52,373 nucleotides of DNA from an uncultured Eubacteriales bacterium (GTDB taxonomy: Bacteria; Bacillota; Clostridia; Christensenellales; CAG-138), in assembly GCA_902802575.1 (NCBI GenBank), contig CADCMN010000003.1, positions 1-52,373 of the forward strand. Direction: 5' to 3'. A program made the translations under genes and the position numbers. The stretch's first letter is position 1. Every line of letters starts with the position of its first letter. Positions 29,567 through 35,985 of this stretch are shown here, in pieces. The notes beneath the pieces are model-generated. The model was not told the origin of the DNA and made no database searches. It saw only the letters and a program-made list of their open reading frames with translations.

Positions 29567-30139
29567 GTGGACGTTCAGACTTTTTTACAGGTAATGCACA
29601 CGGCGGAACGGTTGAAAGACACCGTACGTCACAGCTATACCTCCGGCGGTCGGCGGGAGAGCGTGGCGGAGCACAGCTGGCGGCTCGCACTGATGGCCTA
29701 CTTTCTGCAGGATGAGTTTCCCGATGCGGATATGAACAAGGTCATGGAGATGTGTCTCGTCCATGACCTGGGGGAATGCTTCACGGGGGATATCCCCGCT
29801 TTTCTGAAAACGAACGGAGATGAGGGGCGTGAGGAACAGCTGCTCATGGCATGGGTCAGGTCCCTGCCCGAGCCATACGCCGCCAGGCTCCGTGAGCTCT
29901 ATGGCGAGATGGCGGCCCTCGCGACACAGGAGGCAAAGATCTATAAAGCCCTTGACAAGATGGAAGCGGTGCTCCAGCACAACGAAGCGCCCCTTTCCAC
30001 CTGGATACCCCGGGAGTATGAGCTGAACAAAAGCTACGGTTTCGATCAGGCGGCATTCTCCCCCTATCTTGCCGCCCTCAGGGAGCAGATGCGCCTGGAC
30101 ACCGAACATAAGATCGAAGAAAGCAAAAAAAGCCCGTGA
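29567..30139 (+). CDS. HD-domain phosphohydrolase (YfbR/HDDC2-like)
   Basis: A 190-residue HD protein; metal ligands H36 (VAEHSWRLAL), H66-D67 (CLVHDLGE) and a distal Asp (KALDKMEAVLQ). This arrangement matches YfbR-type 5'-deoxynucleotidases, which dephosphorylate dNMPs; the substrate here is inferred. The start is GTG at 29567 with AGAGG 5 bases upstream, 11 bp after the glucokinase. The stop codon lies inside the downstream terminator hairpin. Confidence 0.8.
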   Translation: MDVQTFLQVMHTAERLKDTVRHSYTSGGRRESVAEHSWRLALMAYFLQDEFPDADMNKVMEMCLVHDLGECFTGDIPAFLKTNGDEGREEQLLMAWVRSLPEPYAARLRELYGEMAALATQEAKIYKALDKMEAVLQHNEAPLSTWIPREYELNKSYGFDQAAFSPYLAALREQMRLDTEHKIEESKKSP

Positions 30140-32803: not shown

Positions 32804-33781
32804 ATGATCCGTGTAGGTATCGTTGGCTATGGCAATGTGGGACGGGGCGCGGAAGCCGCCGTGCTGCAAAGTAAAGATATGGTTCTGACGGGCGTTTTCA
32901 CCAGGCGGTCTCCGGAATCGGTACGGCCCCAGGGTGACACGCCCGTTTTGCCTGTTTCGCGTCTCATGGAGCGGGGAGCGGATGTGGATGTTTTGCTGCT
33001 GTGCGGCGGCAGCGCCACGGATCTGCCCGCGCAGACGCCGGAGCTGGCGCAGCGGTACTGCGTGGTGGACACCTTCGACACCCACGCCCGGATCCCCGAG
33101 CATTTTGCCCGTGTGGATGCGGCGGCGAAGGCGGGAGGGACCGCTGCCATCATCAGCACCGGTTGGGACCCCGGCCTCTTTTCCCTCATGCGGCTGCTGG
33201 GGACCGCCATCCTGCCCGATGGCACGGGAGACACCTTCTGGGGCCCCGGCGTGAGCCAGGGCCATTCCGACGCGGTTCGGCGCATCGAAGGGGTGGCGGA
33301 CGCCCGACAGTACACCATTCCTGTGCAGAAGACGGTGAATGCGGTCCGCCGGGGAGAAAGCGGGTTCACCGCTAGGCAGAAGCACACCCGGGAGGTCTAC
33401 GTGGTGCTGCAGGAGGGCGCCGATCCCCAGCGGGTGGCCCGAGACATCATCACTATGCCCAACTATTTTGACGAATACGACACCACGGTCCATTTCATCT
33501 CCGCAGAGGAGATGGCGGTGGAGCATTCGGCCATGCCCCACGGCGGATTTGTGATCCGCAGCGGGAAGCTGGGGCCGGCCCATCAGTATGATTCGCTGAT
33601 GGAATTCAAACTGGAACTCAGCTCCAACCCCATGTTCACCGGCGCCGTCATGGCCGCCTTCGGACGGGCTTGCTATGGGCTCCATGCCCGGGGAAAGACC
33701 GGCTGCTTCACCGTTTTCGACGTGCCGTTGGGGCTTCTTTCGCCCGTGCCGGCCGATGAGATCAGATCCAAGCTTCTGTGA
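32804..33781 (+). CDS. ddh: meso-Diaminopimelate D-dehydrogenase
   Basis: NADPH enzyme that converts tetrahydrodipicolinate directly to meso-diaminopimelate, a one-step route to the cell-wall cross-linking amino acid and lysine. The 325 residues start with the dinucleotide fold GIVGYGNVGRG and contain CGGSATDLP, ISTGWDPGLFSLMRLL and FWGPGVSQGHSDAVRR, all diagnostic for Ddh. Ribosome binding site AAGAAGGG. It has its own promoter and heads a four-gene run. Confidence 0.95.
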   Translation: MIRVGIVGYGNVGRGAEAAVLQSKDMVLTGVFTRRSPESVRPQGDTPVLPVSRLMERGADVDVLLLCGGSATDLPAQTPELAQRYCVVDTFDTHARIPEHFARVDAAAKAGGTAAIISTGWDPGLFSLMRLLGTAILPDGTGDTFWGPGVSQGHSDAVRRIEGVADARQYTIPVQKTVNAVRRGESGFTARQKHTREVYVVLQEGADPQRVARDIITMPNYFDEYDTTVHFISAEEMAVEHSAMPHGGFVIRSGKLGPAHQYDSLMEFKLELSSNPMFTGAVMAAFGRACYGLHARGKTGCFTVFDVPLGLLSPVPADEIRSKLL

Positions 33782-33809: not shown

Positions 33810-34451
33810 ATGATTACCATTGAAAACATTTGCGTTTCCGGCTTTGCCGCCGCGCTCAGAGGCATGCGCAACCCGCTGAACAGCTGGAAGAAAAGCGACA
33901 GCACCATCACCTACGAGAACGGAGAGGAGATCGCCAAGATCGGTCCCAACGACCTGGATCTGATGAAGCGTCTCAGGAAGGCGGGCAGCGATCACAGGAA
34001 GTATCTGAGAATGATCAACGTCAGCATGGACATCACGGCCATGCAGCCCTGGTGGTTTGAATTCGACACCTACAAGGTGGGCACCGTTCGCAACTCCTGT
34101 TCCAAGATGCACAAGATCCATGCCAAGACCTTCACCGCGGCGGATTTCGCTCATGACGGCATCGACGAGGTCCCCTATGCCCAGGAAGCTCTGAGCGCCG
34201 TCATAGAAGCCTGCGAGCGGCTTCGGCTGGACTTCAACGCCACCAAGGAGAAAAAGTATTGGCGGGCCCTCATCGAGCTGCTGCCAGAGGGCTACTGCAT
34301 GCGGGCCACGGTACAGCTGAACTATGAGGTGCTGCTCCATATGTACTGGTCCCGCAAGGATCACAAGCTCACCGAGTGGCACGACTTCTGCCATATGATC
34401 GAGGAGCTGCCCTACTTTAAGGAGGTTTGCCTCCTGGAGGAGGATGCTTGA
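33810..34451 (+). CDS. Divergent ThyX-fold protein, unknown activity
   Basis: A 213-residue protein whose layout resembles flavin-dependent thymidylate synthase. LLPEGYCMRATVQLNYEVL with the following RKDHKLTEW (about 157-190) mirrors the ThyX C-terminal half, which has LP, Tyr, Arg, Asn, then R..H...E in the same order. The central region WWFEFDTYKVGTVRNSCSKM (81-100) sits where ThyX has RQWFRHR...S, but the RHR motif is missing, so classical dUMP methylation is doubtful. I recall such proteins as common, unnamed genes in Firmicutes and their phages. The start at 33810 follows AAAGGGAAAGAG. Its stop overlaps the start of a FolD-like gene, which links it to folate chemistry. Confidence 0.6.
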   Translation: MITIENICVSGFAAALRGMRNPLNSWKKSDSTITYENGEEIAKIGPNDLDLMKRLRKAGSDHRKYLRMINVSMDITAMQPWWFEFDTYKVGTVRNSCSKMHKIHAKTFTAADFAHDGIDEVPYAQEALSAVIEACERLRLDFNATKEKKYWRALIELLPEGYCMRATVQLNYEVLLHMYWSRKDHKLTEWHDFCHMIEELPYFKEVCLLEEDA

Positions 34452-35200
34452 TGCTGCTCATCGGTAAACAACCGGCGGAACAACTCTATGAGGGGATGGA
34501 CCGGCGCATACAGCTTGCCCCTTCCGTTCCGGGTCTGTTCGCCCTCTATGATCCCGATGACAAGCCTGCGGGCTGGTATCTGAGAAGCATCCAGCGAGCG
34601 GGGGCCAGCCATGGCATCCCGGTCTATGCTCGGTCCTTCTCTGAAGGCGTTCAGCGGCCTCGGGAACCTCTGGGCGGCATGATCGTGCTGAGCAAGACGC
34701 CGGAACCTATCCCCATTCCGGACGAGCTGGATGTGGATGGAACGGGCGCAAACAGCTTCTCCGTCCTGTATAAAGGCGGCCTCAAAGACTACCCCCGCAC
34801 CACGCCCTGCACGGCGGAGGCATGCGTACGGCTGTTAGACTATTACGGCGTGCCCGTGTCGGGCAGGCATGCAGTGATCCTGGGTCGGTCCCTGACGGTA
34901 GGGCGGCCCCTGGCCATGTTGTTGCTGGATCGGAACGCCACGGTGACCCTATGCCACAGCAAGACGATAAACCTGCCGGAGATCTGCCGTCAGGCGGACA
35001 TCCTTGTCTGCGCCACCGGCCGGGAGGGGTTGGTGGGCAGGGACTGCGTGCGTCCGGGGCAGACCCTCATCAACGTGGGCGGTGATGCTGTGGAGGAGGA
35101 AGTAGAGCCTGTGGTGGAGAACCTGTGTCCCTTTAAGGGCGGAGTAGGCGCTTTGACCTCGGCGATCCTGCTCAAGCATGTGACGGATATCCTGCCATGA
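34451..35200 (+). CDS. FolD-like protein lacking the catalytic lysine
   Basis: FolD makes and hydrolyses methenyl-tetrahydrofolate. This 249-residue protein keeps the NADP-binding half (TTPCTAEACVRLL at 117-129, AVILGRSLTVGRPLAMLLL at 141-159, the ADILVCATG strand and GGVGALTSAILL at 230-241). In the N-terminal half the active-site YxxxK has become Y43-LRS-I47, and the usual DGxLVQLPLP loop reads GGMIVLSKTPEP with a deletion after it. Loss of the Lys and the Gln argues against normal activity; a changed substrate or a binding role is possible. It starts in the previous stop (TGATG) and overlaps the SDR gene by 4 bp. Confidence 0.78.
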   Translation: MLLIGKQPAEQLYEGMDRRIQLAPSVPGLFALYDPDDKPAGWYLRSIQRAGASHGIPVYARSFSEGVQRPREPLGGMIVLSKTPEPIPIPDELDVDGTGANSFSVLYKGGLKDYPRTTPCTAEACVRLLDYYGVPVSGRHAVILGRSLTVGRPLAMLLLDRNATVTLCHSKTINLPEICRQADILVCATGREGLVGRDCVRPGQTLINVGGDAVEEEVEPVVENLCPFKGGVGALTSAILLKHVTDILP

Positions 35201-35985
35201 AACGCATTGCCGTATTGACCGGGCCCACCGGCGGATTGGGCCGGGCATTTATGAACGAACTGATGCACGAGGATCTGGAGGAGATATGGGCGGTGGGAAG
35301 GAATCCGGCCAAGCTGGCGGACCTTTGCGCCGCCTACGGTCCAAAAGCGGTCCCGGTGCGCTGCGATTTAGGCGTTGAAGGAGAGGTGAGGGGACTTGCC
35401 CTTCTTTTGGCGGAACAGAAGCCGGATATCCGGTTTTTGATCAACAATGCGGGCGTGGCCAGAATGGGAAAGATCGAAGGCTTTTCCGACGACGAGCTGT
35501 CGAAGACCATCGAGATCAACTGCAAGACCCCCACGCTGATCTGCCAGTACGCCCTCCCGTATATGACCCGTGGCGCCAGGATACTGAACATCGCTTCCGC
35601 CTCGTCCTTTCAGCCCAACCCCTATATCGCCCTGTATTCAGCTACGAAGGCGTATCTCAGGTCCTATTCGAGAAGCATGAATTATGAGCTGAAGGACAGG
35701 GGCATCTCCTGTACCGCCGTATGCCCGGGATGGGTGGATACGCCCATGCTGCGCAGGACGCAGAACGGGAACAAGGTCAGGTTCCCGGGCATGGTTTCCC
35801 CGGAGAAAGTGGTCAAAAAAGCCATGAGGGACGCCAAAAAAGGAAGGGATATGTCCGTTTGCTCCCTGTTTGTGAAACAGGAACATCTCTGGAGCAAGCT
35901 CATGCCGCAAAAATGGTCCATGGCCATTTGGGGCCGTGCCGTCAAACGATATGTGGAGGATCAGAACAGCCTTCCGGCAAAATAG
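35197..35985 (+). CDS. Short-chain dehydrogenase/reductase
   Basis: A classical SDR of 262 residues: TGPTGGLG cofactor loop at 8-15, NNAG at 83-86, catalytic Ser134/136 region (NIASASSF) and Y147-x3-K151 (YSATKA), PGWVDTP near 176. NAD(P) use is certain; the substrate is not. The C-terminal extension has a basic segment (KKAMRDAKKG). Coupling to the FolD-like gene (ATGA overlap) suggests a shared pathway. Its last 25 bases overlap, tail to tail, the minus-strand DUF445 gene, with no terminator between them. Confidence 0.9.
   Translation: MKRIAVLTGPTGGLGRAFMNELMHEDLEEIWAVGRNPAKLADLCAAYGPKAVPVRCDLGVEGEVRGLALLLAEQKPDIRFLINNAGVARMGKIEGFSDDELSKTIEINCKTPTLICQYALPYMTRGARILNIASASSFQPNPYIALYSATKAYLRSYSRSMNYELKDRGISCTAVCPGWVDTPMLRRTQNGNKVRFPGMVSPEKVVKKAMRDAKKGRDMSVCSLFVKQEHLWSKLMPQKWSMAIWGRAVKRYVEDQNSLPAK

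Follow-up and report, generated by a model that had tools for sequence, protein, structure and literature searches.

A ThyX-fold protein family without the RHR motif as a proposed phage-derived thymidylate synthase of Clostridia

How does a bacterium make thymidylate (dTMP) when neither of the known thymidylate synthases can be found in its genome? The passages cited here name only two routes, ThyA and ThyX (PMC9931769, PMC6514825), between which structural homology is absent (PMC9931769). The question is raised by a 52,373-nucleotide stretch of DNA, here called the window, from an uncultured bacterium of the Clostridia (contig CADCMN010000003.1, lineage CAG-138). In the genome to which it belongs, 76.8% complete, we found no ThyX (PF02511) and no ThyA (PF00303) gene. 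The window carries ddh, A, B and C as one overlapping row of genes, with coordinates taken from the sequence. A sequence-only reading had described A as ThyX-like without the RHR motif, B as a FolD without its catalytic lysine and C as a short-chain dehydrogenase/reductase (SDR), and had proposed from them a repurposed one-carbon or pterin chemistry.

Here we computed the fold of A, its gene order, the pattern in which it replaces ThyA and ThyX, and its occurrence and context in viruses. We conclude that A is very probably an RHR-less thymidylate synthase of phage origin that has displaced ThyA or ThyX several times, with B feeding it and C as an optional member.

Fold and sequence of gene A

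Searches of Pfam and NCBIfam with A gave no match at E <= 1, none to PF00303 or PF02511 included. A matches the PHROG family phrog_6721 over residues 1-207 of 213 (E 6e-66); the family is listed as of 'unknown function', and a function can now be proposed for it through A. An AlphaFold2 model was built from an 80-sequence alignment (A2) of the window protein with its genus and viral relatives, and reached a pLDDT of 92.9 and a pTM of 0.86. Foldseek found 156 matches to this model in the PDB at E <= 0.001. All 50 of those listed are ThyX, the best being 3ah5 (E 2.1e-8, TM 0.65, 15% identity). As modelled, A is ThyX by fold, and the resemblance claimed from the sequence holds.

The absence of the RHR motif holds as well. 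In ThyX this triplet contacts flavin adenine dinucleotide (FAD) and deoxyuridylate (dUMP) (PMC6514825); it occurs in none of the 107 A-family members gathered, window A included. Near the region of its loss, 103 of the 107 read DTYK, in a register that differs by a few residues between reading and MAFFT, and 99 hold the longer block W[WFY]xExDTYK. Retained in A are the His that is conserved in the GHxSPxEH stretch and, towards the C terminus, an LP..T..N..R stretch whose final Arg is invariant. Only two columns, His62 and Arg182 of A, are invariant in a ten-row alignment of ThyX and A sequences. PF02511 itself is matched at E <= 0.1 by 4 of 30 A-family members (best 2.7e-5), and the other Pfam families matched in this set are hit by one member each. 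In the whole-genome search with PF02511, five A loci gave E-values between 6e-5 and 8e-4, none of which reached the cut-off. Judged by RHR and PF02511, A falls outside ThyX; with its own DTYK block, ~15% identity to ThyX and no Pfam match for the window protein, it would form a separate ThyX-fold family.

Might such a family do something other than make dTMP? Phages modify their DNA bases, and the RHR region of A has been replaced. Both would suit a nucleotide-modifying offshoot of ThyX that acts on another pyrimidine (UMP, dCMP or of hydroxymethyl type) in cells that salvage thymidine. There is a precedent in PolB of polyoxin biosynthesis, a ThyX homologue of 38% identity whose substrate choice is altered: it methylates UMP as well as dUMP (PMC5003785). 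PolB itself also makes dTMP, however (PMC5003785), and whereas PolB comes from an antibiotic cluster, A belongs to a far remoter family found in core and viral nucleotide settings. Nor would a modifying enzyme make A and ThyA or ThyX mutually exclusive or place A beside a dihydrofolate reductase (DHFR), as is described below. We regard this explanation as improbable.

Replacement of ThyA and ThyX across Clostridia

Does A occur where the known synthases are missing? We searched 216 genomes of Clostridia, selected at a requested completeness of 90% and including our own, for A, PF00303 and PF02511. A was matched in 23 of them, about 10%, ThyA in 95 and ThyX in 105, of which 100 were above cut-off. 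ThyX was counted above the cut-off only; the five matches below it are the A genes themselves. One A match was left out: that of G167, which lies (E 9e-4) inside a 914-residue frame in a genome with ThyA.

With our own genome excluded, 3 of the 21 A carriers have a canonical synthase, whereas 186 of the 194 non-carriers do; the Fisher p of 2.5e-17 is inflated by relatedness, genomes within a family not being independent. Counting G167 as a carrier changes this to 4 of 22 (p 1.3e-16), and an exact test inside the four families that hold both kinds, with counts set by hand, gives 5e-5. Put the other way, neither ThyA nor ThyX was found in 18 of the 21 other carriers, or 19 of 22 with our own genome, as against 8 of 194 genomes without A; annotation would therefore suggest that these 19 are thymidine auxotrophs. 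The three carriers with a canonical synthase all hold ThyX, and none of the 21 holds ThyA. Of the 12 genomes examined from the genus of the window, 11 carry A (G223 as a copy split by a frame break), none carries ThyX and one carries ThyA.

The neighbours of A point the same way. Pairs of thyA and folA are familiar, and A directly adjoins DHFR on the same strand in three genomes (G209, G041, G066), a likeness to ThyA, to which it is otherwise unlike in having no sequence match to PF00303; in G169 it lies ~2 kb from DHFR. In all eight genomes of the family f16, A stands directly behind gyrB, which was confirmed by Pfam in L153 and identified elsewhere by reading; the loci read also have recF- or dnaN-like genes nearby. 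A distant A homologue in G180 (L166 8832-11954) adjoins riboflavin synthesis genes, lumazine synthase among them by Pfam, which may hint at a flavin cofactor for A.

The distribution of DHFR bears on the folate product. In a search of 68 genomes, for which the ThyA-only and ThyX-only sets were hand-picked, DHFR was found in 16 of 16 ThyA-only and 2 of 15 ThyX-only genomes. It was found in 6 of 18 A-only genomes of the class and in none of the seven A-bearing genus genomes tested (6 of 25 together), in none of three genomes with both A and ThyX, in two of eight with no synthase, and in the one remaining genome, G216. A-only genomes, 19 of 25 of which lack DHFR, are thus for the most part like ThyX genomes, and this suggests tetrahydrofolate (THF) as the product.

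A would accordingly be predicted to convert dUMP to dTMP with methylene-THF and, most likely, to release THF rather than dihydrofolate, so that many carriers would need no DHFR. Its electrons may come from a flavin or another reductant held in the rebuilt pocket. B would feed A with methylene-THF made from methenyl-THF by NAD(P)H-dependent reduction, and C may serve as an accessory reductase. That A acts as a thymidylate synthase is well supported by the genomic evidence.

Other departures from standard ThyX were seen among these genomes. Three Pfam-recognised Thy1 proteins lack an intact RHR (L143 198-908 in G160, WKY; L142 83-823 in G029, RHQ; L148 187-909 in G091, none), and in G160 no thymidylate synthase other than the WKY form was found. 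ThyX-like frames of ~380-480 residues occur at L145 (G048) and L149 (G213) and as matches in G058, G082, G196 and G090; in G048, G213 and G090 two PF02511 stretches in one frame suggest a tandem double-domain ThyX.

Gene B and the arrangement of the locus

If A needs methylene-THF, is B fit to provide it? B matches PF02882, the NAD(P)-binding half of FolD, at E 1.4e-40, and its N-terminal half is barely recognised (PF00763, E 0.24). The lysine that the sequence-only reading described as lacking is indeed absent: YxxxK of FolD reads YxxxI in all seven genus copies of B examined, the catalytic Lys being replaced by Ile. The FolD Tyr and DVDG are kept. The QLPxP stretch, which in FolD holds the catalytic Gln, reads VLSKT or ILSKT, in a part where the MAFFT alignment is poor and the sequence of L007 is masked; in L011, QLP appears a few positions further along. 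Roles are given for Tyr52, Lys56, Gln100 and Asp125 of FolD (PMC3368264), and because the Lys also has a role in the dehydrogenase step (PMC3368264), the activity of B is not certain.

Could B then be a dead or regulatory remnant of FolD, and no dehydrogenase at all? The lost Lys and its role in that step, the diverged N-terminal half and an AlphaFold2 model so poor there (ten-residue means of 30-61 over residues 1-120) that it was left unused all favour this. The distribution of FolD genes argues otherwise. B is the only PF02882 gene found in the window genome. A strong PF02882 match occurs in each of the 12 genus genomes; 9 of the 11 A carriers have just one, namely B next to A. The other two, G217 and G224, have no B; each has another FolD elsewhere that likewise lacks the catalytic Lys and has as neighbours an FTCD_C gene and a gene for a 5-formyl-THF cyclo-ligase (Pfam was run on G224 only). 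The FTCD_C family includes stand-alone methenyl-THF cyclohydrolases. B and this second FolD look interchangeable, which makes a dehydrogenase working with a separate cyclohydrolase partner the natural reading of B; it also makes the missing Lys less exotic than it looks. A remnant seems to us rather unlikely.

The genes of the row are given in Table 1. They are coupled as had been read from the sequence: A follows ddh by 28 bp, the start of B lies inside the stop codon of A (TGATG at 34451), and the start of C lies inside that of B (ATGA at 35197). C is an SDR, as had been proposed, with a PF00106 match at E 3.6e-37 and the sequences TGPTGGLG and YSATK where the SDR motifs TGxxxGxG and YxxxK require them.

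Table 1. Genes of the ddh-A-B-C row in the window
Feature	Position	Strand	Evidence
ddh, meso-diaminopimelate dehydrogenase	32804..33781	+	NCBIfam TIGR01921, E 5e-120
Gene A, proposed thymidylate synthase of 213 aa with a ThyX fold and no RHR	33810..34451	+	phrog_6721, AlphaFold/Foldseek, ThyA/ThyX replacement pattern
Gene B, FolD-like, 249 aa, proposed monofunctional methylene-THF dehydrogenase	34451..35200	+	PF02882
Gene C, SDR of 262 aa, optional in the row	35197..35985	+	PF00106

How constant is this arrangement? Ten genus loci were compared, from metagenome genomes titled uncultured Clostridiales or Clostridia, one of them from sheep jejunum. A follows ddh in all ten, B follows A in eight (L009 and L010 have no B), and C follows B in four (the sequence of L006 stops within C). 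An order kept to this extent is not due to chance. We therefore take ddh-A as the conserved core, B as common and C as optional; ddh, the constant upstream neighbour, is probably on the same transcript as A. In 20 wider A loci outside the genus, tblastn picked up no ddh and no B, and an SDR resembling C in just one of them, L165 (28% identical to C). For the expectation that the three genes travel together the outcome is mixed: A-B recurs in 9 of the 11 A-bearing genus genomes, while the full trio is confined to four of ten loci and was not seen outside the genus.

A conserved three-gene pathway of repurposed chemistry was considered and rejected on the count for C. The repurposed one-carbon or pterin chemistry itself is not supported either: when canonical thyA, thyX and folD were looked for elsewhere in the incomplete window genome, no thyA, thyX or second PF02882 gene beside B was found. 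Most simply, A and B would be carrying out the usual reactions as enzymes of unusual make.

Elsewhere in the window, ~3.7 kb upstream of A, positions 29567-30139 encode an HD-domain protein resembling the 5'-deoxynucleotidase YfbR (PF13023, E 8e-37; PF12917, E 2e-13).

Viral relatives and the weight of the evidence

Where did A come from? By tblastn it occurs in 21 of 50,697 phage records, whose hosts include Clostridioides, Enterocloster, Fusobacterium and Desulfovibrio. A scan of IMG/VR with an alignment (A1) found it in at least 588 viral contigs; an earlier viral scan with a single A sequence as query had given no match, and the alignment was needed. We kept 80 of these loci (717 kb). Among their 150 open reading frames flanking A (the longest on the plus strand within 400 bases, spurious frames included) are, as raw counts, NRDD (8), MazG (6), dUTPase (5), and dCTP deaminase-like, guanylate kinase, dGTP diphosphohydrolase-like and Fer4_12 proteins (3 each). 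Five of the 80 loci have a FolD gene 0.8 to 1.1 kb downstream of A, and the three viral FolDs read (L077, L106, L118) keep the catalytic Lys, as YIRNK. No match to ThyX, ThyA or DHFR was found in the 80 loci, which reach up to ~5 kb on each side of A. The family thus appears common in phages of anaerobes, partly in deoxynucleotide modules. Seven contigs (L077, L087, L088, L090, L105, L118, L120) share a module of nrdG, nrdD, A, a primase-like gene and a D5 helicase, with FolD inserted in three of them.

In a FastTree phylogeny of the 107 family members (22 cellular, 85 viral), the window genus (support 1.0) stands beside viral L051 and L053 (0.994), and the f11 genomes (0.999) beside viral L091 and L093 (0.946). 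Families f16, f26, f38 and f32 group with L018 (0.998), which is labelled viral; it is an unverified, unannotated 7-kb record and may be host DNA. The remaining cellular copies, which are second or prophage-like copies and that of an f2 genome, lie elsewhere with lower support. Since cellular copies sit in three separately supported places among viral ones, we infer at least three captures from viruses; on this direction of transfer, Clostridia would have taken up A from phages several times and lost ThyA or ThyX to it.

Several findings weigh against this proposal. The activity of A as a thymidylate synthase is a prediction from genomes and fold, and the motif that binds FAD and dUMP in ThyX is gone. 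Profile comparison of the A family with ThyX is weak (hhalign E 0.004 at 8% probability and E 0.04 at 1%), and an hmmsearch of PDB sequences with the A-family profile brought up no ThyX at E <= 10. The homology of A and ThyX consequently rests on the fold, a few PF02511 matches below threshold and the shared motif columns. To the inflated Fisher p must be added the six A-only class genomes that do hold DHFR and the three carriers that also have a PF02511 gene, G029, G095 and G203. In G095 A is a fragment with a stop; in G029 the ThyX is itself unusual, as its RHQ shows; and in G203 A adjoins a gene with a weak, below-cut-off Helicase_C match and groups with a viral copy at a support of only 0.12.

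The one genus genome with ThyA, G216, is also the only one without A. There B comes straight after ddh without an intervening A, and ThyA adjoins DHFR on another contig. The G+C content of the ddh-B contig is 0.53 and that of the ThyA contig 0.60; of 20 stretches sampled, four were masked throughout, and 12 of the 16 that could be read have values of 0.57-0.61. Because this bin, 75% complete, may be mixed, the apparent swap of A for ThyA is suggestive only.

The last point on this side is that 8 of the 194 A-less genomes (G004, G011, G038, G087, G089, G149, G155, G165) have no recognised thymidylate synthase, and a profile search found no A in them either, so thymidine auxotrophy or further enzymes do occur. 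Four of these largely complete genomes are small order-mates of 0.8-0.9 Mb. Together with the lost RHR, they lend something to the idea that A is a relic, a redox or folate-binding ThyX descendant with a regulatory or structural role in a genus that has lost thymidylate synthesis. The conservation of A speaks against it: A is 89-97% identical to the window copy in nine of the ten genus loci and better conserved there than ddh, B and C, with ddh at 80-86% across all ten. A comparison with L004 finds 48 synonymous against 6 non-synonymous single-change codons in A, and A occurs in several separate lineages that have no other synthase. We consider a relic very improbable. In the tenth locus, L011, A appears divided by a frame break, which may be an assembly error or a sign of decay, into two pieces of 82 and 87% identity (L011 6001-6625, G223:C17), and no other thymidylate synthase was found in that genome.

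We return, then, to A as a thymidylate synthase. Is it a new class? In the titles and abstracts covered by our literature search, drawn from a collection with few subscription papers and no bioRxiv preprints, neither an RHR-less ThyX family nor a third thymidylate synthase is described. We put at about even the chance that A represents a third class, a ThyX fold born in phages with a rebuilt cofactor site (a different flavin, a different reductant, or no flavin) that has repeatedly become the sole source of dTMP in Clostridia.

Should A prove to be the enzyme that is missing, it would account for what looks like a gap in an essential pathway of gut and rumen anaerobes. A large unannotated phage family would gain a function, and viral genes would have displaced core DNA-precursor enzymes more than once. 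There would also be a mechanistic question to answer: by what means a ThyX fold can function once the motif for holding FAD and dUMP is lost.

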